Virus record (IMG/VR): IMGVR_UViG_3300044641_004197
Span: 1 to 64,000 of that record
Length of the DNA stretch: 64,000 bases
From: a virus
Reading direction: 5' to 3' (one strand)
The translations under genes and the position numbers were made by a program. Positions 41,475 to 53,366 of the stretch are shown in pieces (positions within the stretch are counted from its first letter, which is position 1; each line of letters starts with the position of its first letter). The notes beneath the pieces were generated by a model that did not search any database, was not told the origin of the DNA, and worked only from the letters and a program-made list of their open reading frames with translations.

Positions 41475-42386
41475 TTATATTTTGTAGGTCTGTTCGAACT
41501 TTTCAATAGCATAGTCCTTACCCTTGAACTCAAATTCAAAGTCAACATCCAAATTTTGATATTCAGCAGGAATCTCACGGACATAATCCGCATGAGCACG
41601 GGGATTGCTATTGTTCAAATCATTGTCACTAAAGTGAAACAACGGACGATGCTTACCCCAAGTAGACATTGCAAGATTAACATCTTCAGTAGCAGTCAAC
41701 TTGCCAGTATTACAGCGGTAGTGTAAATTGTCATAAGTAATAGGAATGCCAGTATTTTGATATACGTAATCATACAGTTCTTGAACTTTCCAACTATTAG
41801 GTTTATCTTCGTTTTCCAAAACCAGCCTAGACCTCACTTTCTCAGAAAGGCTGTTATATACATCAATAAAACGCAAGGCGATGTCCTTTACGTTACCCTT
41901 GTAACAATTCATATGAATGTTTATAGGAGCATCATACGAACGAGGAAGACCAAAGTAGTCCATCATCTTGCCATGCATCTCCAATTCTTCAATAGATTTC
42001 TTAACTACAGCAGAATTGGCACTGGCAGGAACAACGAACTGGTCAGGATGAGTGCTACAACGGATATTATACTTTTTGATAACCGCAGCAGCAAGATCAA
42101 ACTCTTGTTTGATTTTAGAAAAATTATAGGTATTCTCAAGCAACAAATTAGCATCTGGCAATGTTTCCAGAGGCATCATACCACTACTGATACGATAATT
42201 CCAACCACGTTGACCACAAAACTCCAACGTCTTACGAGTAACATAAACGTTGTTAAGAGTTCTATCCGCAACAATACGTTCGGCGGAATTACGTTCAAGA
42301 GCAAGAAATCTAGTCTTGGTCATGGTTGACGCTTTGATTCCTTGTTCTTGAAGTTTGAGAGAAATGCAACAGAGTGACTTTTTCAT
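41475..42386 (-). CDS. UV damage endonuclease, UvdE/UvsE-like
   Basis: 303 residues, TIM-barrel. YRISSGMMPLETLPDANLL, CSTHPDQFVVP, NIHMNCYKGNVKDIALRF, SRLVLENEDK (Glu-Asn-Asp/Glu metal site), ITYDNLHYRC and LFHFSDNDL match UVDE in order. The enzyme uses metal ions to nick DNA 5' of pyrimidine dimers and other lesions, starting excision repair. In the His-rich metal site some positions differ (NLHYRC for the bacterial D-x-H-H). The promoter hexamers lie immediately before the ATG, so its mRNA is probably leaderless. Confidence 0.85.
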   Translation of the reverse strand: MKKSLCCISLKLQEQGIKASTMTKTRFLALERNSAERIVADRTLNNVYVTRKTLEFCGQRGWNYRISSGMMPLETLPDANLLLENTYNFSKIKQEFDLAAAVIKKYNIRCSTHPDQFVVPASANSAVVKKSIEELEMHGKMMDYFGLPRSYDAPINIHMNCYKGNVKDIALRFIDVYNSLSEKVRSRLVLENEDKPNSWKVQELYDYVYQNTGIPITYDNLHYRCNTGKLTATEDVNLAMSTWGKHRPLFHFSDNDLNNSNPRAHADYVREIPAEYQNLDVDFEFEFKGKDYAIEKFEQTYKI

Positions 42387-42392
42387 TCTCTT

Positions 42393-42420
42393 ATTATAAC
42401 TAACTTATTATAAATGTCAA
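42393..42420 (-). promoter_or_regulatory. Consensus sigma70 promoter, leaderless start
   Basis: Read leftward: TTGACA (42420-42415), a 16-bp spacer, TATAAT (42398-42393). Both hexamers are perfect. Six nt separate the -10 from the ATG at 42386, so with standard spacing transcription begins on the A of the start codon. No Shine-Dalgarno sequence can exist on such a transcript. Confidence 0.7.
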
Positions 42421-42423
42421 CGG

Positions 42424-43599
42424 TTATCTTCCAACTTCACCGAAATACTTATCCTTAGCCTCTTCATAAGTCATTCCTATCATTTTATTATAATATAGAA
42501 TATCAGGCTTCAAGTTACCCTCATTATTTAGCTTTTTATATCTTTCTATTGCCTTTGGTTTCCACCATTCAATTATACCATTTACATCTTTCTTAAAGAG
42601 TTCTTTCATCTTCAATTGATCTTCTGCAATTTTATTTTGAAGGAACTCTTTGGTATTTTCATAGAAACAACTATAATAGACACCTCTCTCATATCCATGT
42701 TGATAATCAGTAGCTTTAATTTTTAATTCTTGGAATATCATACTGATTACTCTGTTCTTAGCACCAGTTACAGGTCCACTAACACCTTCCTTCTGTGTCA
42801 TTTCCTCTTCGTATTTCTGTTTTTTATTATCCTTAATCCATTGATGCCAGACATCATATACACTATCATCTGGTTTAATCATCATTTTACCGGCACTAGA
42901 ACCGCATTTATGCCACCATTTCAAACTATTATACATACTATAACTTCCATATAAACTTGTAGTGGTAATACCTACAAGGGATTGTCCATACAACTTCTTC
43001 CAAATTTCTCTAACTTTTGAAGATGTAACAAGAGCAGCTACCAATTTACCACCCAAGAAATTATATCCAAACGGTTGGGTGGACATAATACAACTACCAA
43101 TAGCACTATTAGCAAGTTTCTTATCTTGCAACCTATTCTCATCAGTCCATCCAATATAATTATCTCTATCTGTAATAGCAATAACGTCACTTGATATACT
43201 AACTACACCCAAATAACGTGGATTATCTTCATTACCATCACTAATCAACAGTTTAATAAATCTACCAGGAGTTTGAGCATATTCCATCGTATGACAGAAT
43301 GTTCGTAACAGCACCCAATCAGAATCTAATGGATTATTTAATACATGAACTACCGTTGGATTAATATCCTCAATCTCTTGAATTGTCAATTTTTCATCAT
43401 TGATATCTGTAGGAGTCCATATCTTAGCTTTTGATATTGACGATTTATTAATATAATTTCTTAACCCTTGAACTTCCAACCATTTCTTATAAAAGGTCTG
43501 TTCTTCCGCCGTCATACTCTTTAAGAAATTTAAGTTATTAATAAACTTGCGTTTCTCTAAATCATAGTCAAAATCAAAATCTCCAAAAAATTGGCTCAT
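42424..43599 (-). CDS. Conserved hypothetical, possibly DUF4338/DruA-related
   Basis: 391 residues. After about 90 variable residues comes GRFIKLLISDGNED, YLGVVSISSDV, DRDNYIGWTDENR, STQPFGYNFLGGKLVAALV and ITTTSLYGSYSMYNSLKWW. The YLG...RD-x-IGW...GGKL order recalls DUF4338 proteins such as Druantia DruA and, more remotely, the GNAT-like fold. I cannot verify the relationship. No nuclease motif is seen. It overlaps a 96-aa gene by 4 nt. It may be a phage-borne relative of a defence component. Confidence 0.4.
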   Translation of the reverse strand: MSQFFGDFDFDYDLEKRKFINNLNFLKSMTAEEQTFYKKWLEVQGLRNYINKSSISKAKIWTPTDINDEKLTIQEIEDINPTVVHVLNNPLDSDWVLLRTFCHTMEYAQTPGRFIKLLISDGNEDNPRYLGVVSISSDVIAITDRDNYIGWTDENRLQDKKLANSAIGSCIMSTQPFGYNFLGGKLVAALVTSSKVREIWKKLYGQSLVGITTTSLYGSYSMYNSLKWWHKCGSSAGKMMIKPDDSVYDVWHQWIKDNKKQKYEEEMTQKEGVSGPVTGAKNRVISMIFQELKIKATDYQHGYERGVYYSCFYENTKEFLQNKIAEDQLKMKELFKKDVNGIIEWWKPKAIERYKKLNNEGNLKPDILYYNKMIGMTYEEAKDKYFGEVGR

Positions 43600-44519: not shown

Positions 44520-44548
44520 AGTATAACACGGGTTATATATTATGTCAA
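44520..44548 (-). promoter_or_regulatory. Strong sigma70 promoter (consensus -35, extended -10)
   Basis: Read leftward: TTGACA (44548-44543), a 17-bp spacer, TATACT (44525-44520) preceded by TGT, an extended -10. Predicted start is near 44513. The 57-nt leader has a stem TGGTT/AACCA at its 5' side and an A-rich tract ending AAAAAAGGAAA before the ATG at 44456. It overlaps the stop codon of the VWA gene. Confidence 0.75.
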
Positions 44549-46662
44549 TCCTTATTCAAGAACATTTTATTAATAGTTTTAGCAATATCAAAAATATTCT
44601 TGACGTTCACAAATGATGCATTTTGTCCATACATCACTTTGAATTGCTTTCTCACTGCATCAAGATCCTTGTTAGTAGAACTCATAACATAAGAACTATA
44701 CAATGCTTCATAATCCTCCTTAATAAAATAACTCAAGATTTTATATCCCTTATCACGAACCTTATTGACTTGACTACGTGTATGAATACAAGCCTGTTCT
44801 CCTCCGTATTGAACGGTCACTCCAGACACATCTTGGTAATTCATAAAAGGTTGACCATCACTAAAATTTAGAAAATAGTAATTGTCATCCGTAGATGTAG
44901 GAAGTTCATTCATAATAGATTCAAAACACATTCCTTCAGGAGTGCATCCTGCGGGAACAATATAAGGAAACAAATTCTTTACCTTACTAATTTTATCAAT
45001 ATTAGAATCATAAGCAATAACAACATAAGGATGTTCCGAAGATCGACTTGTGCTATGGAAAGTAGATCTAAAACTAACAGCAACCCTTACATTATCAATC
45101 ATAGACGCAGCTTTACAAATAGCAGTAACAGCAGTCATTGTAGTCAACCACTTATTACCACCCATGCTTGAACTAGCATCTACACTAATATGAATATAAG
45201 ATTTATTATATTGATCCACATCAATATTATAAAACACGTTCTCATTGTCATAAGACAACTCAGACAATATGCGTTTATCAATACGTCCGGTAGGCTTACG
45301 CATATGCTTACAAGTGTTGACCTCGTTTCTAACCTGAAGTCTACGACCCAAGACCGCACCCTTAACGAATCCTTCATTAATAGCATTAACCATTTCTTTA
45401 GAAGCGTATGCCTTATCCTTATGATCAAGCATGCTCAAAGGAAACAACTTACTATCAATCAATTCTTTAGTCAGTTTCTTGACCAGAATACAATCAACCT
45501 TGTATTTACCATCAGACTTAACATAGGTATTACCGACAGAAACAAGTGTCATTCCTGACTTCTCGATAGCATCAAGAATATTCTTCTCTTTAGTAGAGAC
45601 CTTTTTCTTCTTGATGTTTCCGTTCAAAAAGTCCTTTTGTTTGTCAAGAGACTTTTTAATTTGATTGGTTCTAGTCTTGGATACCTTTGAATCCTCGCCA
45701 ATGTTGTCCTTAATGGTTTGTTCGTCTGTGGTAGAGACCTTAGTAGTATCTTCCCCACCCAAAACATCATCAACATTTTGATTTGAATTAGACGGACTTT
45801 TATTAGAGTCTCCTCCTTTATTGTCCAAAGGAATTCCAATTGAACTGGAACTGTCATCGCCTTGAGATTCAGAATTCTCTTCTGTATTCTGGGATGCAGA
45901 CTGTCCTTTATCTTGCTTTGTAGGAGCTTCAATAATATTTTGGAGAATAATTGCAACGACCTCATAAGCTACCTGCAATCTATCATGGGTAGTCTTAAGA
46001 CGTTCAATGTCAGAAAGATTGATGATCTTGGCAATATCACGAAGACCCGGCAAAGCATCAAGATCGGTGTTTTTATTAGTGAAATTGATGATACGAGCTT
46101 CGTAACTTGCAATGCTAGGAACACGATACAAATCGCTCTTAAGCATTATATCAATCTTATTGCTATTAAAATACTTATCATAGAGAGCGTTATAATAACC
46201 ACGATATCCAGGAGCATTCTTGAATACGTAATTATCAATATAACGATCCTCAATATAGTTGAGAATGTTCTTGACAAGCACATGAATGTCTTCCTTCGAA
46301 ATTTGAAGACGTTGGCCGTAAGTATAAAGTTCACGGGGAACCTTCTGCCAGATAGTTTTAAAAATATCAAAATCTGACAGAAGGACGTGACTACCTTCGT
46401 GAAGGGCCAAACCTACAGCGGGGTCAAAATCTTCCTTATTAACAATATCAGAAGAAATATAAACCGTCTTTCCACAAGTGCTGTTGTCGCCACTATCATT
46501 AAAATAAACCGGAATAGATTTATTTGTAAGAATGTGAACGAAGTTGCTAATAGCCCTACGGGCCATTGCTAGTTTGATCAAGTTGGTGTTGATAGCATTC
46601 TCGCTAACATCATCCTCGAAATCAAAATCATCCAACCAGTATTCGCTGTAGGTATTTTCCAT
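44545..46662 (-). CDS. VWA-domain protein with N-terminal HExxH (CobT/VWA-peptidase-like)
   Basis: 705 residues. Residues 75-150 carry AVGLALHEGSHVLLSDF with HEGSH at 88-92, a zinc-protease-like HExxH. Residues 250-345 are acidic and Ser-rich, probably disordered. Residues 485-700 are a von Willebrand A domain with the MIDAS D495-A-S-S-S (SVDASSSMGG), a Thr in PAGCTPEGM and FLNFSDGQP. It is the partner of the MoxR-like ATPase 12 nt upstream. This resembles CobS/CobT-type chelatase or MoxR/VWA protein-remodelling pairs. A metal chelatase role is unlikely without cofactor genes. Confidence 0.8.
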   Translation of the reverse strand: MENTYSEYWLDDFDFEDDVSENAINTNLIKLAMARRAISNFVHILTNKSIPVYFNDSGDNSTCGKTVYISSDIVNKEDFDPAVGLALHEGSHVLLSDFDIFKTIWQKVPRELYTYGQRLQISKEDIHVLVKNILNYIEDRYIDNYVFKNAPGYRGYYNALYDKYFNSNKIDIMLKSDLYRVPSIASYEARIINFTNKNTDLDALPGLRDIAKIINLSDIERLKTTHDRLQVAYEVVAIILQNIIEAPTKQDKGQSASQNTEENSESQGDDSSSSIGIPLDNKGGDSNKSPSNSNQNVDDVLGGEDTTKVSTTDEQTIKDNIGEDSKVSKTRTNQIKKSLDKQKDFLNGNIKKKKVSTKEKNILDAIEKSGMTLVSVGNTYVKSDGKYKVDCILVKKLTKELIDSKLFPLSMLDHKDKAYASKEMVNAINEGFVKGAVLGRRLQVRNEVNTCKHMRKPTGRIDKRILSELSYDNENVFYNIDVDQYNKSYIHISVDASSSMGGNKWLTTMTAVTAICKAASMIDNVRVAVSFRSTFHSTSRSSEHPYVVIAYDSNIDKISKVKNLFPYIVPAGCTPEGMCFESIMNELPTSTDDNYYFLNFSDGQPFMNYQDVSGVTVQYGGEQACIHTRSQVNKVRDKGYKILSYFIKEDYEALYSSYVMSSTNKDLDAVRKQFKVMYGQNASFVNVKNIFDIAKTINKMFLNKD

Positions 46663-46674
46663 AGTCCTCTTATT

Positions 46675-47628
46675 TTAGAACGGAGGTTGGTTATTGTCAA
46701 CCTTCAAAGGATCATTGATTAAATTTTCATTCGTAACCGAAGGAATATATTTCTGAACCAATTGCTTGACATATGTCCGTTCACTGTCAACCCCACCATC
46801 AGTTAAGAAGTTAGGATAAATTGCAGTTTCAGCAATTTCGTTCAAATTGAACCCATCCAAAATCAACTCGCTCATTTCAACAGTAGAACGAGTAGGAATA
46901 AAATTAGTAAGCTTACTATCCTCACTCTTTACCTGTTCACGGGTATGATGAGCAATCTCACAAACAGCAGCAAGAATCTTTAGGGATGCTTCATCACTAA
47001 TAGAAAACCTATTCTTAAGATAATTAAACTCAGTAAGATTATCCATAGGGGACATCTCAATCTTAATAGGGAAACGACTCATCAAAGCCCTATCCATAAC
47101 ACGGGTTGCGGTATACTCATTACCGATATTAGCAGTTCCAATAAAACATACACCCTCAGCAACCTTAACAACCTCACTGTCCTGCTTTTCATCTAACCTC
47201 AAATAACGTTGAATGTCATCCAAAACAGTCATCATAACGTTCCAAGCATCGTGATGAGCACGGGAAATCTCGTCCAACAAAATAACAGCATTTGGAGTCT
47301 TGATAGCCTTGACAAAGGTAGACTCGCTAAAATAAGTTCCAGTTTCCTTATTGTAGTGGGTGTTACCAATCAAGGCTGCACGAGCATCTTGAGTAGCACC
47401 CAAGTTAAAATAAAAGAAAGGACGATCAAGAGCATTCGCCACCGTTTGAGCGGAAAGAGTCTTGCCACAACCAGTAGGTCCAACAATCAAAATATTCTTT
47501 CCACGATACACCGAGCGAACCATGTATTTCCACTTGATGTCATCCATAACCAAACTAACCGGCTTAAGTTTGGTTGCGTTGCTAATTAGAGTCTTCGTAT
47601 CCATTGTCTTGTTTGATGTTTTTTTCAT
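46675..47628 (-). CDS. MoxR/CobS-like AAA+ ATPase
   Basis: 317 residues. Walker A GPTGCGKT at 50-57, Walker B AVILLDEIS near 115-122, a helix-2 insert (LGATQDARAALIGN), sensor 1 FIGTANIG and the arginine-containing ALMSRFPIKIEM complete the MoxR clade pattern. It probably forms a hexamer that works with the downstream VWA protein to remodel a protein or complex. CobS-like genes occur in T4-like cyanophages. It has its own promoter right after the terminator of the upstream gene. Confidence 0.88.
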   Translation of the reverse strand: MKKTSNKTMDTKTLISNATKLKPVSLVMDDIKWKYMVRSVYRGKNILIVGPTGCGKTLSAQTVANALDRPFFYFNLGATQDARAALIGNTHYNKETGTYFSESTFVKAIKTPNAVILLDEISRAHHDAWNVMMTVLDDIQRYLRLDEKQDSEVVKVAEGVCFIGTANIGNEYTATRVMDRALMSRFPIKIEMSPMDNLTEFNYLKNRFSISDEASLKILAAVCEIAHHTREQVKSEDSKLTNFIPTRSTVEMSELILDGFNLNEIAETAIYPNFLTDGGVDSERTYVKQLVQKYIPSVTNENLINDPLKVDNNQPPF

Positions 47629-48057: not shown

Positions 48058-48717
48058 TTATTTCTTTTGTCTGCCTCTACCCTTGAAGACAGTAGGCTTA
48101 ACTACAAGTTTCTTATCTTTTTGTTTTGGATACTTGTATTCGGCCTTTTCACCCTTGACACTGTGGTCAACTTGTTTCTTTATTTTGTCCACTGATTTCA
48201 TTGGTGAGGTAGGCAAATCATCTTTCTTTTCAACTGCGTCTTCGACTTTTTCATCGGTTTCTTGAGGTTTATCAAGGTCTTTCTTTCCTTCCTTGTCCTC
48301 AGAGTTTTTAACGCACTTTTCCCATTTTTCTTGACCAAAATCAGGCTTTGTTTCCTTTAATGTTTCGGTAACAAATTTCTTTAAATCTTCGAATGAAAGA
48401 TTTAATTTCTTGGTTCTGTCAGTTTTATTTTTAAAATGAGTTACATTGAAACTATCATCTGTTACTGGATAGATACTAAAATGATGTGGATCGCAATCAC
48501 ATACATTATATCTCTTTGCATCATCAAGATAAACACGAGCATCTTTATTTGCGGACTTAACGGCTTCTGCTAATTCTTCCATCTTGGCTTCCAATGAATG
48601 TTCTTTCTTAATCTTCATTGGTTTCAACGATTCTTTAATGATGTTACGAATAGCCTTTTCTAACTTAACTTCGGCTACACATTCACTGATAATTTTCTTT
48701 AGTTCTTTATTGGTCAT
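48058..48717 (-). CDS. Hypothetical charged protein (219 aa)
   Basis: Not recognised. The first 125 residues are probably helical (KKIISECVAEVKLEKAIRNI) with a small NVCDCDPHHFSIY patch of Cys and His that could bind a metal. Residues 130-219 are Lys/Glu/Asp-rich and likely disordered, ending FKGRGRQKK. The exported protein follows after 1 nt. No membrane segment is seen. A structural or scaffolding role would suit the composition, but it is only a guess. Confidence 0.6.
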   Translation of the reverse strand: MTNKELKKIISECVAEVKLEKAIRNIIKESLKPMKIKKEHSLEAKMEELAEAVKSANKDARVYLDDAKRYNVCDCDPHHFSIYPVTDDSFNVTHFKNKTDRTKKLNLSFEDLKKFVTETLKETKPDFGQEKWEKCVKNSEDKEGKKDLDKPQETDEKVEDAVEKKDDLPTSPMKSVDKIKKQVDHSVKGEKAEYKYPKQKDKKLVVKPTVFKGRGRQKK

Positions 48718-48747: not shown

Positions 48748-49530
48748 TCAAAAAAATGAATTATCATTCTTATTTTCAACTACAATTTCCATTATTTCTT
48801 CTTTATAAGTATTGGTTTTTGGAGCGGACAACACTTTATGTTTCAATGATTTAGACAGTTTTTTGTTTTCTATCTTATTACTGATGAATTTTATATAACG
48901 ATGTTTACCGCTTTCCTTTTTCCTCCAGAATGTATGACCAATCTTCTTCTTTAATACATCTACACTATGACTGCCCCAATTAGCATATACAGTTCTACTA
49001 TGTATCCATTCGTAATCAGGCGGACCTTTTAAACTTACACTATAATTAGGCATAATAGCCACATCGACATAATTATCCCCTTGATATAAAAACCCAGTAG
49101 CTTGATAGATTTTACCGAGATGTCCTACTTCACTATCTGCATAACTCAATATGCACTTGATAATGGGAAAATCACGGTTTAATTGTCTGAATGACTCCGC
49201 AATACAATAACTCTCTATATTCTTACCATACCCATCAGCAATCCATAAACGGGTCAATTCTAACACATTATTATTAACTAATAGAGGACTTATACTAGTG
49301 CTAGCATTTCTACCTACTGCCTGTCCATATACTAATACACCAATTAATTTACTATTATAACCACCAAAAAAAGTGCTTTCTATATATTCTTTATAGTAAA
49401 CACCATATGCAACTCTACAAACCGTCCATTTATGAGTATAATGGTTTTTTACAATAATATCCTTAGCCAAATTCTTTTGAATGGGTCTAAGGTAAATTAA
49501 TGATGTATCACAATAATGCGTCTCGGACAT
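48748..49530 (-). CDS. Mom-like DNA modification protein (GNAT-related)
   Basis: 260 residues. GVLVYGQAVGRNASTS, LELTRLWIADGYGKNIESYC and ILSYADSEVGHLGKIYQATG match the order of blocks in phage Mu Mom-family proteins (EL-RL, then SYAD-x-x-GH-G-IYxAxxF-Y-G). Mom converts adenine to a carbamoylmethyl (acetamido) form and so shields phage DNA from restriction. The C-terminal 60 residues are basic and charged. A perfect hairpin lies 3 nt before the start. The call is by motif recall, and another GNAT-like activity is possible. Confidence 0.65.
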   Translation of the reverse strand: MSETHYCDTSLIYLRPIQKNLAKDIIVKNHYTHKWTVCRVAYGVYYKEYIESTFFGGYNSKLIGVLVYGQAVGRNASTSISPLLVNNNVLELTRLWIADGYGKNIESYCIAESFRQLNRDFPIIKCILSYADSEVGHLGKIYQATGFLYQGDNYVDVAIMPNYSVSLKGPPDYEWIHSRTVYANWGSHSVDVLKKKIGHTFWRKKESGKHRYIKFISNKIENKKLSKSLKHKVLSAPKTNTYKEEIMEIVVENKNDNSFF

Positions 49531-49533
49531 AAC

Positions 49534-49557
49534 AATTCTAATATCACTATTAGAATT
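49534..49557 (-). promoter_or_regulatory. Perfect 10-bp hairpin just before the mom-like start
   Basis: AATTCTAATA (49534-49543) and TATTAGAATT (49548-49557) are exact complements around TCAC. The hairpin fills the gap between the coiled-coil gene's stop (49561) and the mom-like ATG (49530), where a ribosome must bind. There is no T run, so it is more like a translational operator than a terminator. Confidence 0.55.
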
Positions 49558-49560
49558 ATA

Positions 49561-49950
49561 TTACACCAGTTTCAATTTTTCAACTTTTTTTTTATTAACT
49601 TTTCCACTATTTAATAAAGTCTTTATAACCTCATTCGACGCATCAAGTTTGATTTCAAGTTCGTTTAACTCAGCTTGTAATCGTTTATTTTCGTCTTTAT
49701 ATTCCCTCAACTCTTTCTTTATACTTTCATTTTCTTTTTTATACGCATTCATTTCTTGTCTAATCGCATCTCTATCGGTTCTACATTCATCCAAGTCTTT
49801 CTTAAGTTCTTTTCGCAACTTTTCATTGGATTCATTTATTAATTTCACCAAATCAAGTCTTGATTTTTTAGACGCTATCGCATATGCAACTACAGATGAA
49901 AATATAGCCGGTATAATTGCAATTAAAGAAGTAGAAATTGTATCATTCAT
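49561..49950 (-). CDS. Membrane-anchored coiled-coil protein
   Basis: 129 residues. One N-terminal membrane segment (TSLIAIIPAIFSSVVAYAIA) precedes a long, regular heptad coiled coil (about residues 30-115: LRKELKKDLDECRTDRDAIR and on) and a basic tail. This is the layout of i-spanins and of some membrane tethers. No endolysin or holin gene is near, so spanin is only one option. It lies 30 nt before the mom-like gene and 56 nt below nrdB. Confidence 0.6.
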   Translation of the reverse strand: MNDTISTSLIAIIPAIFSSVVAYAIASKKSRLDLVKLINESNEKLRKELKKDLDECRTDRDAIRQEMNAYKKENESIKKELREYKDENKRLQAELNELEIKLDASNEVIKTLLNSGKVNKKKVEKLKLV

Positions 49951-50006
49951 ATTATAAAAACATACTTAAATAAATATAGTTATTATAAAATAAATTATAA
50001 AAATTT

Positions 50007-51065
50007 TTACAATTTGAAATCGTCAAATGCACTATCGTTAATAGTATTATCTACACCTTTTACATAACTACTCAATTCGGTTTCTTGAGGGGCTACTTGT
50101 AGTTTCTTACTATCATAGTAACTATCCAACCACCCAGCCAATGGATTGGTTTTAGCAGCTGGATACAACTTCTTATATCCAAGACTTGTTAATCTATTAT
50201 TGGCCAACCACTCAATATAATGCTTTAAACTCTCAGCAGTCAATCCAATCAAACTACCCTTACTGAATAGATAGTCTGCCCAGTCTTTTTCTGCATTAAC
50301 CGCCATTTCATAAGCAGCATAGATCTTCTCTTCATTTTTCTTAACAATATCTTGGAATCCTTCATCTGGGTTGTTGATCCAGTTCTTCATGATGTTCTGA
50401 GTAATAGCTACGTGTAGATTTTCATCACGGCTAATAAACTTAATAATCTTACTATTACCCTCCATCTTTCCACGATAGCCAAAGTAGAAACTACAAGCAA
50501 AACTCACATAGAAAATCAATCCTTCAGTGATCTGCGTAGCAAGAACAGCATCAAACAATTGTTGTTTAACATCATCTGATGGCTTTAGTAGTTCATCATA
50601 CTTCTTACTGATTGCAGTAGCTCTCTTAACAATTTCTTCATCATTCAAAATACTATCAAAAAACTTGGTAGCATCTGGATAAACATTGTTTAGAATGTAT
50701 GTATAACTGTTACTGTGAATAGTTTCAAAGAAACTCCATGTGTTCATGCAAATCTCCAATTCACTATTGGTAACATGCTTCATAAGTTCATGAATACTAC
50801 GACTCAACATACTATCAGTCATAGTCTGAAACTTTAGATTGCTATCAAATACAAAACGTTCTTCAGGTGAAAGATTCTTATAATCACTAATGTCCTTCAC
50901 CAAAGAAACTTCTTGTGGTCTCCAAAAGAAATTCAATTGTTGATCGTATAGGTCATAGAACTTAGGATACTTGATCAAATCATATCGTTGTAGTGATAGA
51001 TCTTCTCCCAAGAACATTGGATTTCTTAATTGGTCTATGTTTCTTTTATTTAATACAGTTTTCAT
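50007..51065 (-). CDS. nrdB: Ribonucleotide reductase class I beta subunit
   Basis: 352 residues. The diiron ligands are Asp84 (QTMTDSML), Glu114 and His117 (FFETIHSNSY), a Glu in EGLIFYVSF, and Glu/His in SRDENLH. Tyr121 in the same segment is the radical tyrosine, so this is a normal tyrosyl-radical subunit. It pairs with NrdA to make dNDPs. It is preceded by the strongest Shine-Dalgarno sequence in the window and is 12 nt below nrdA. The C-terminus, rich in Asp and Phe (SAFDDFKL), should dock on NrdA. Confidence 0.96.
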   Translation of the reverse strand: MKTVLNKRNIDQLRNPMFLGEDLSLQRYDLIKYPKFYDLYDQQLNFFWRPQEVSLVKDISDYKNLSPEERFVFDSNLKFQTMTDSMLSRSIHELMKHVTNSELEICMNTWSFFETIHSNSYTYILNNVYPDATKFFDSILNDEEIVKRATAISKKYDELLKPSDDVKQQLFDAVLATQITEGLIFYVSFACSFYFGYRGKMEGNSKIIKFISRDENLHVAITQNIMKNWINNPDEGFQDIVKKNEEKIYAAYEMAVNAEKDWADYLFSKGSLIGLTAESLKHYIEWLANNRLTSLGYKKLYPAAKTNPLAGWLDSYYDSKKLQVAPQETELSSYVKGVDNTINDSAFDDFKL

Positions 51066-51077: not shown

Positions 51078-53366
51078 TTATAGAGCACACGCTCCGCTAG
51101 CACAACCACTTTCTTCTATAACCACTTTCTTTGTCTCCAAAGTCTTTTGTTCCATTGCGGTTTGTTTATCACCGTCATCGGTATTAGCATAATATAAATT
51201 CTTAATACCATACTTATAAGCCGTCAAAATATCCTTAATAACTTCCTGAACAGGAACTTTATTATTTGGATAACGTGAAGGAATGTAATAAGTGTTGGTG
51301 CTAATGCTCATATCAGTAAACTTCTGAATGGCAGCAGCCACTTTTAAATATCCTTCATTACTTGGCATATCAAAAGCAAAGGTATAATTTTCTTTATACT
51401 TGTCAATACCAGGAACAACTACAGGCAAAATGTTACTCTTGCTACCCTTGAAACTAATAGCACTACGAGGAGGTTCAATACCATTCGTAGAACTTTGAAT
51501 TACACTACTAGATTCTACAGGCATACAAGCAGTTAATGTTGAATGACGCATTCCATACTTCTTAATATCTTCACGTAGGCTTTCCCAGTCACAATGAAGT
51601 TTCTCAGTTATGAATTCGTCAATGTCTCTCTTATAAGTATCAATTGGAAGGACTCCCTGACTAAATTTTGTGCGATCAAATTTTTCACACTTACCTACTT
51701 CTTTAGCCATCTCAACACTAGCTTTAATCAAATAATAACTAGTCTTTTCCATCCACTTAGCAACAAAGTTAGGAGCATCCTTGTCCCAATACTTCAATCC
51801 TTCTTTAGCCAACAAAGCAGCCAAGTTACTTACACCAACACCAAGGCTACGTCGTTTCTTAGCGAAGTTTTCAGCTGCTGGAACGAAATAATCTTGATGG
51901 TCAATCAATGAATCCAACATTCTGACAATAATGTCACAAACACTTTCCATTTCATCATCATCCTTGATTTCCAACCAATTCAATGCGGCCAGAATACATA
52001 CACCAATTTCACCGTCTTTATCATTAACGTCACTGATAGGAATCAATGGGTGGTTAACCTCAAGACATAGATTGCTTGTATCAACTTGATCTAACCAACT
52101 ACCATGTTCATTGGCGTGATCGACGTGCATTGTATAAATACGTCCAGTTTCAAGACGTTCCTTAGCCAATAGACCCATCAATTCACGAGCGTTAATCTTC
52201 TTCTTGAACTTAATGTTCTTATTAGCTTCAGCCTTTTCATACTTCTCCTTGAATCCTTCCATGCCGAAAGTATTCCACAATGAAGGACATTCGTGATAAC
52301 TAAACAATGTAACATCTTGATTCTTGAGGAATCGTTCAAATATAACTTTATCTAATCCAACACAATAATCCAACTTACGAACACGATTATCATCAGTTCC
52401 CGCATTGTTCTTCAATACAAGAATATCCATGATATCATAATGAAACCAAGCAAAGTTTACAGTTGCACTTCCGCCACGAATACCATTTTGATGACAACTC
52501 TTCACTGTGGATTCAAATGCCTTACTAAAAGGAATTGGTCCGGTATGAATAACTTCACCATTACGAATAGGAGCATTAGTAGCACGTAATCTGGATAGAT
52601 TCAATCCAATACCATAACGGCTTGCGGTGGCAAATCCTACAGCACTATTATTTGCAAAGATACTCTTGAGTGTATCGTCTACAGTAAACAAACTACAAGA
52701 AGCATAACTCTTCATTACAGTTCTTACACCGGCCATAATAGGGGTGGGAAGATTAATCTTATGCTTACTAAAGTAGTTATACGCCTTCTTTACATATTCC
52801 AATCTATTTTCTTTATAGTTCTTAAAGAAGGTCATTGCGATTAGAATATATGCAAACTGAGGAGTCTCATATATCTTCTTGGTTGATCTGTTCTGGACCA
52901 AATACTTATCACACAACTGTTTAATTCCAGCGTATGTGAAATTAAAATCTCTATCGTGTTTAAGAAACTCGTCAATCTTGTCAAATTCTTGTTTAGTATA
53001 CCATTGAAGAATTTCTTCATCATATACTAGATTAGAAACGTTGTCTTTGACAAGATCATACAATTTAGGTGGATTCTTACCACCCCAAACTTCTTTACGA
53101 AGTTGGTAATTAAGCAATCTACTTGCAACAAATTGGTAATTGGGTTTATCTTCGCTAATTAGATTAGCAGAAGATTCGATAAGAAGTTTATGTATATCTG
53201 CGCTTGACATTCCATCAAAGAATGACAAATGTGCATTCATACCAACTTCTTCAAAACTAACTCCTTTTATATCCTCCGTAGCCCACTGCAACACTTTGTT
53301 TATTTTGTCTGCATTAAACTTCTCGGTTTTTCCGCTACGCTTTTTAATAAAAATATCTTTGTTCAT
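51078..53366 (-). CDS. nrdA: Ribonucleotide reductase class I alpha subunit
   Basis: 762 residues, E. coli NrdA type. ATP cone at the N-terminus (IKKRSGKTEKFNADKINKVL). Active-site Cys residues in KSYASCSLFTVDD, DTSNLCLEVNHP and IGVCILAALNW correspond to E. coli Cys225, 439 and 462. The C-terminal redox pair is Cys755/Cys760 in ESGCASGACAL, as in E. coli. It reduces ribonucleoside diphosphates, re-reduced by thioredoxin or glutaredoxin, which is not in the window. The leader has a promoter-like TTGAAA-17-GATAAT. Confidence 0.96.
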   Translation of the reverse strand: MNKDIFIKKRSGKTEKFNADKINKVLQWATEDIKGVSFEEVGMNAHLSFFDGMSSADIHKLLIESSANLISEDKPNYQFVASRLLNYQLRKEVWGGKNPPKLYDLVKDNVSNLVYDEEILQWYTKQEFDKIDEFLKHDRDFNFTYAGIKQLCDKYLVQNRSTKKIYETPQFAYILIAMTFFKNYKENRLEYVKKAYNYFSKHKINLPTPIMAGVRTVMKSYASCSLFTVDDTLKSIFANNSAVGFATASRYGIGLNLSRLRATNAPIRNGEVIHTGPIPFSKAFESTVKSCHQNGIRGGSATVNFAWFHYDIMDILVLKNNAGTDDNRVRKLDYCVGLDKVIFERFLKNQDVTLFSYHECPSLWNTFGMEGFKEKYEKAEANKNIKFKKKINARELMGLLAKERLETGRIYTMHVDHANEHGSWLDQVDTSNLCLEVNHPLIPISDVNDKDGEIGVCILAALNWLEIKDDDEMESVCDIIVRMLDSLIDHQDYFVPAAENFAKKRRSLGVGVSNLAALLAKEGLKYWDKDAPNFVAKWMEKTSYYLIKASVEMAKEVGKCEKFDRTKFSQGVLPIDTYKRDIDEFITEKLHCDWESLREDIKKYGMRHSTLTACMPVESSSVIQSSTNGIEPPRSAISFKGSKSNILPVVVPGIDKYKENYTFAFDMPSNEGYLKVAAAIQKFTDMSISTNTYYIPSRYPNNKVPVQEVIKDILTAYKYGIKNLYYANTDDGDKQTAMEQKTLETKKVVIEESGCASGACAL

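Follow-up and report, generated by a model that had tools for sequence, protein, structure and literature searches.

The present analysis concerns a window of 64,000 nucleotides, the whole stretch of DNA analyzed, from a T4-like virus known from a metagenome, in which a Mom-like gene is directly preceded by an inverted repeat. In phage Mu, a hairpin over the mom start region blocks translation and is opened by Com, and an earlier note on this DNA drew a parallel with that system. The question raised by the locus is, therefore, whether the hairpin controls mom at all and, if so, by which route.

Results

Mom-family gene and its genomic surroundings

The genes and the motif that define the locus are as follows.

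48748..49530, minus strand: mom, predicted Mom-family adenine-modifying acyltransferase-fold protein, 260 aa; ATG at 49530, stop codon ending at 48748
48058..48717, minus strand: c6, 219 aa, no assigned function; downstream of mom, also present where mom is absent
49561..49950, minus strand: c14, one membrane helix and a coiled coil, spanin/holin-like with weak PHROG matches; upstream of and codirectional with mom
49970..49977, minus strand: ATATTTAT motif ahead of c14, taken as a putative start motif of late genes in the clade
50007-51065, minus strand: nrdB, codirectional, before c14 and mom, read from the translated sequence
51078-53366, minus strand: nrdA, codirectional, before nrdB, read from the translated sequence

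The identification of a Mom-like gene in the earlier note was borne out, and mom almost certainly encodes a Mom enzyme. Its product gave a full-length match to the profile of Pfam family PF25680 (143.2 bits against a curated cut-off of 27.1, residues 12-231), matched phrog_1384 ("Mom-like DNA modification protein") in PHROG, and was aligned by phmmer with PDB entry 8BV8 ("Methylcarbamoylase mom" of Mu) with an E value of 1.6e-11. In an alignment with the Mom proteins of Mu and Polaribacter, residues H30, Y31, R94, S107, D132, and Y142 are invariant, and their counterparts in Mu Mom are H58/Y59, R111, S124, D149, and Y159, which we take to be active-site residues. The ATG of mom is backed by similar N-termini in relatives, and no further common start codon is found in frame upstream of it. 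Judging from its family, the product would probably modify adenines of the phage DNA against restriction.

About ten relatives share the gene order nrdA-nrdB-c14 (or another gene)-mom-c6. In L090-L093, c6 comes directly after nrdB or is separated from it by no more than a small ORF, and searches of L089-L093 and L097 gave no mom match; mom is therefore optional cargo, here placed between nrdB and c6. In a second group, which includes L031 and L055 among other loci, mom is found near the major capsid gene (phrog_138) and in the opposite orientation; the gene has thus occupied at least two genomic sites. Some other features of these regions deserve mention. In two relatives (L020:1-3286 and L029:1-3234), a 253-aa ORF from a different family apparently interrupts nrdA and leaves it as two ORFs, which is reminiscent of the homing endonuclease mobE in nrdA of the Aeromonas phage Aeh1. 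At 44545-47628 of the window lie the genes of a conserved pair found downstream of mom in group A relatives; one product is an AAA+ (MoxR/CobS-like) ATPase, and its partner of 705 aa looks metallopeptidase/VWA-like by eye and has no significant Pfam match.

Hairpin before the mom start

The elements recognized in and around the gap between c14 and mom are listed below.

49534..49557, minus strand: hairpin AATTCTAATA-GTGA-TATTAGAATT; 5' arm 49557..49548, loop 49547..49544, 3' arm 49543..49534
49578..49583, minus strand: predicted -35 element TTGAAA, sigma70-type match
49555..49560, minus strand: predicted -10 element TATAAT; occupies the first 6 nt of the gap and runs into the beginning of the 5' arm
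49531..49548, minus strand: predicted 18-nt leader of the mom transcript, start at about 49548 as judged from the position of the -10 element

The perfect 10-bp stem described in the earlier note is real. The gap from the stop codon of c14 to the ATG of mom spans 30 nt (49531-49560; 49560..49531 reads TATAATTCTAATAGTGATATTAGAATTGTT), 24 of which are taken by the stem and loop, and the arms at 49534-49543 and 49548-49557 pair without a mismatch over 10 bp around the 4-nt loop. RNAfold predicted 12 pairs at -10.7 kcal/mol (z = -2.96), a stability equaled by 1 of 200 shuffles. The stem stops 3 nt short of the ATG and leaves the start codon unpaired. No Shine-Dalgarno sequence was found inside the gap, and such a sequence is present at just 9 of the 59 genes of the window. 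In a long RNA, the opening energy of the mom start region (-16 to +14) amounts to 11.0 kcal/mol, compared with a mean of 5.8 for the genes, and the region ranks as the 4th most closed among 58 window genes. Control at the RNA level is plausible, as had been suggested. A single stem of at least 10 bp is, however, not overwhelming, because the window holds 4 perfect stems of that length with short loops against 1.09 +/- 1.12 in shuffles; start-codon pairing in the window was no higher than in shuffles (p = 0.19).

The sequence of the hairpin is not conserved at the mom starts of relatives. The exact palindrome was found in IMG/VR in the same virus only, the window lineage being represented by one virus (L001 matches the window at 100% identity over 5959 nt), and no variants of it were found, even with a degenerate start-of-gene pattern. 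A conserved RNA element was rejected on the basis of this confinement to one virus and the lack of an Rfam match. As the hairpin starts directly after the stop codon of c14, it might instead form the end of the upstream message, acting as a weak terminator, a pause, or an RNA processing site for c14. We consider this highly improbable: no T run follows the stem, which is nearly devoid of G-C pairs, and the hairpin has no Rfam match and is absent from the terminator-scan list. The terminator proper was rejected on the missing T run and the scan.

Predicted promoter within the gap

It is very likely that mom has its own sigma70-type promoter. The predicted element, TTGAAA-17-TATAAT, scores 11/12 and is one of the two tied best among 87 matches in 19 kb. 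This lone match proves little because the total of 87 is not raised over that of shuffles (82.5), and the relatives described below carry the argument. The first nucleotide of RNA from this promoter would probably lie near 49548, where the 5' arm ends, and such RNA would therefore be unable to form the hairpin; the predicted leader has the loop and the 3' arm, while only the last base of the 5' arm remains in it. Correspondingly, the opening energy of the mom start falls to about 6-8 kcal/mol in the short RNA. The hairpin is thus poorly described as a fixed block on the mom mRNA, which was the picture drawn earlier, given that a strong sigma70-type promoter is predicted to initiate within the gap, giving RNA devoid of the 5' arm. 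The predicted leader of 18 nt reflects the position of the promoter, which sits further upstream than in most relatives.

The late expression of mom supposed in the earlier note is also unsupported. The predicted promoter is of the TTGACA/TATAAT type and not the ATATTTAT motif, the putative late type, which precedes virion genes of the clade, and the timing of mom expression is therefore uncertain. In addition, TATTTATA was not found within 100 nt upstream of mom.

Promoters and structure at the mom starts of relatives

A first scan of IMG/VR yielded 189 stretches encoding mom relatives, and all scans together gave 244 mom loci with a usable start, of which 30 are non-redundant around the start. 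A promoter match of at least 11/12 lies close to the ATG in 11 of these 30, against 0.11 expected from shuffles, and in 16 of the 30 the -10 element ends exactly 6 nt before the ATG, a near-leaderless arrangement in which transcription would begin at or next to the A of the ATG. The recurrent feature of mom starts is, at the level of promoter matches, a close promoter.

Structure at these starts was examined with shuffles in which the promoter hexamers and coding bases were kept fixed. Excess structure at p<0.05 was found in 8 of 22 lineages of promoter-bearing mom starts (Fisher 6e-7), a value that is optimistic because the rows are related and the lineages only partly independent; when the codirectional lineages were collapsed by hand into nine, 5e-5 was retained. 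The test is well calibrated, as 4.8% of 187 genes without a promoter fell below 0.05, and other genes with a sigma promoter gave 2/24, the difference from mom being 0.03 for these genes and 5e-5 for those without a promoter by the exact test. Structure is thus over-represented at mom starts though the hairpin sequence varies. Sorted by the upstream gene, structured mom starts account for 8/18 where that gene is codirectional, 1/7 where it is divergent, and 0/5 where it overlaps; for codirectional versus divergent alone, p = 0.07, after placement of L025 and L028 in the codirectional group by hand, because the ORF assigned to them automatically as upstream gene lies on the reverse strand of c14. 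Many mom starts have no structure, including those of L055 (52 members, p = 0.88), L025, and L028. Start-codon pairing across the relatives is weak with the hexamers kept constant (Fisher 0.017, a value due mainly to L029 and L025), and our claim therefore rests on overall structure and not on burial of the ATG.

The overlapping arrangement is seen in L002, L005, L020, and L023 (4751-5023), where a 90-aa SemiSWEET-like gene (MtN3_slv, PF03083) covers the first 23 nt of mom. No excess structure was found at the mom start in these four, and in two of them a TTGACA-16-TA-type promoter precedes the SemiSWEET-like gene instead of mom. Such a sugar-transporter-like gene is unusual for a phage.

These data bear on two readings of the palindrome that involve no control of translation. 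One is that the palindrome plays no regulatory part and has merely arisen by chance, or is drifting, in an AT-rich promoter region, mom being transcribed from its own promoter. The uniqueness of its sequence, the absence of a hairpin from many relatives, the 1.09 stems of at least 10 bp expected per window by chance, and the fact that mom is one among 58 starts tested make this an appreciable possibility, albeit not one that we favor, because the excess of structure at promoter-bearing mom starts persists with composition and hexamers fixed and is unlike what is seen at other promoter-bearing genes. The other is that the inverted repeat is a DNA operator, on which a phage or host repressor would control mom transcription. 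The palindrome does lie exactly over the -10 element and the predicted start, and in L004 a different perfect palindrome occurs at almost the same offset. Nevertheless, we regard an operator as improbable, given that the palindromes of relatives are wholly different in sequence and the excess of structure tracks the read-through context. Half-sites are not enriched in the window (31 versus 27 expected), and a shared operator was rejected on that search.

Possible start-codon promoters across the clade

Over the 310 unique genes of the retrieved loci, occurrences of ATATTTAT cluster 4-5 nt ahead of the ATG (34 of 79), the reverse complement of the motif shows no peak, and TTGACA peaks 28 and 31 nt before the ATG. 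Examples of ATATTTAT in the window lie upstream of 48717 and 60307. Promoters may sit directly on start codons across the phage clade. A gene for a UvdE-type UV endonuclease (41475-42420 of the window) has a 12/12 TTGACA-16-TATAAT promoter whose -10 element ends 6 nt before the ATG, the same layout as in most mom genes. Beside it, at 42424-43599, this phage carries a stand-alone homologue of DruA (Druantia defence; PF14236, 85 bits; DruA in PADLOC).

Discussion

Of the explanations considered, we favor the one in which the hairpin acts as a read-through silencer like those of T4 e and soc, set on an optional Mom cargo gene, and we hold this model to be about evenly poised between right and wrong. 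It would work as follows: mom would carry its own sigma70-type promoter set against the start codon, with the hairpin spanning the promoter. RNA begun at this promoter would have its first nucleotide near the final base of the 5' arm, form no hairpin, and be translated, while read-through RNA from nrdAB and c14 would hold both arms, so that the hairpin would probably keep the mom start closed. Translation would then be permitted from the local transcript only, with no trans-activation of the Com type. What favors such silencing is that excess structure occurs where a codirectional gene lies upstream and not where the upstream gene is divergent or overlapping. Against it stand the unconserved hairpin sequence, the many unstructured mom starts, the position of the ATG outside the stem, and the modest energies. 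The benefit in timing is also unclear, unlike in T4 e, because the mom promoter is not of the putative late type.

A broader and more doubtful view, which we put forward tentatively, is that early-type (TTGACA/TATAAT) and putative late-type (ATATTTAT) promoters abut the ATGs of this clade at a fixed distance and make leaderless or near-leaderless messages common, and that the cargo genes mom and c14 add ever-changing hairpins limiting translation to local messages. This would amount to the T4 gene e switch in near-leaderless form, with structure kept and sequence not. If the read-through model of mom is right, silencing of the kind described for the lysis and homing genes of T4 would also protect a DNA-modification gene, through a mechanism that does not involve Mu Com. 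A phage group with promoters directly on start codons would also be a natural set for studies of leaderless translation in phage infection.

Comparison with the Mu com-mom system shows both likeness and difference. The Mom proteins are homologous (30% identity, with active-site residues kept), and the opening energy near the start is similar (10.7 kcal/mol for Mu mom and 11.0 for mom of the window). The start codon of Mu mom, GTG, lies inside the stem, whereas the ATG here is 3 nt outside it; com and mom overlap in Mu, but no Com and no such overlap were found in the window; and Mu uses the C-dependent late promoter Pmom, in contrast with the predicted near-consensus promoter of mom here. A Mu-like switch, in which the hairpin would block translation until a small phage protein analogous to Com opens it, might be read from the Mom family gene, the pre-start hairpin, and the nearby small genes with no assigned function. 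It is nevertheless extremely improbable. As the earlier note had seen, there is no obvious com: searches of the 72-kb contig and nine related ones, all possibly incomplete, gave no hit to the Com family (PF10122) above the cut-off, and Mu Com itself was recovered (36.7 bits), leaving the proposed parallel with Com unsupported. Given this possible incompleteness, an activator of another family is conceivable. Moreover, no gene overlapping mom is common to the Mom family relatives examined, and the transcript from the promoter of mom would lack the 5' arm. The same enzyme family (PF25680/phrog_1384) is found in other phages such as Polaribacter phage P12002L, whose protein is 42% identical, but this belongs to another phage group with another gene context around Mom.

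The closer parallel, by analogy of layout, is probably with the hairpins of T4 genes e, soc, and 49. In these genes, I-TevI, and mobE of the Aeromonas phage Aeh1, the start region is sequestered in read-through RNA, and for e it was shown that the start is freed in RNA from a promoter within the 5' strand of the hairpin (PMC3014915). The T4 genes have a late promoter, whereas the one predicted for mom is sigma70-like, and mom also differs in having no Shine-Dalgarno sequence, an ATG just outside the stem, and a hairpin sequence not conserved in relatives. What the two would share is a hairpin over the translation start region in read-through RNA and a local transcript without the 5' arm, both predicted for mom, together with codirectional transcription from upstream genes; Aeh1 mobE sits in a ribonucleotide reductase gene, and mom lies downstream of nrdAB. 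The read-through model also draws support from the neighboring c14 in some relatives (L263 and L265-L271), where a perfect 16-bp hairpin, GTCCATAAGTTATA...TATAACTTATGGAC, lying some 40 nt ahead of the start of c14 (L263:1468-1506; the corresponding stretch of the window is 49951-50006), buries the ATG and contains ATATTTAT, which is by its arrangement a textbook design of the T4 gene e type.
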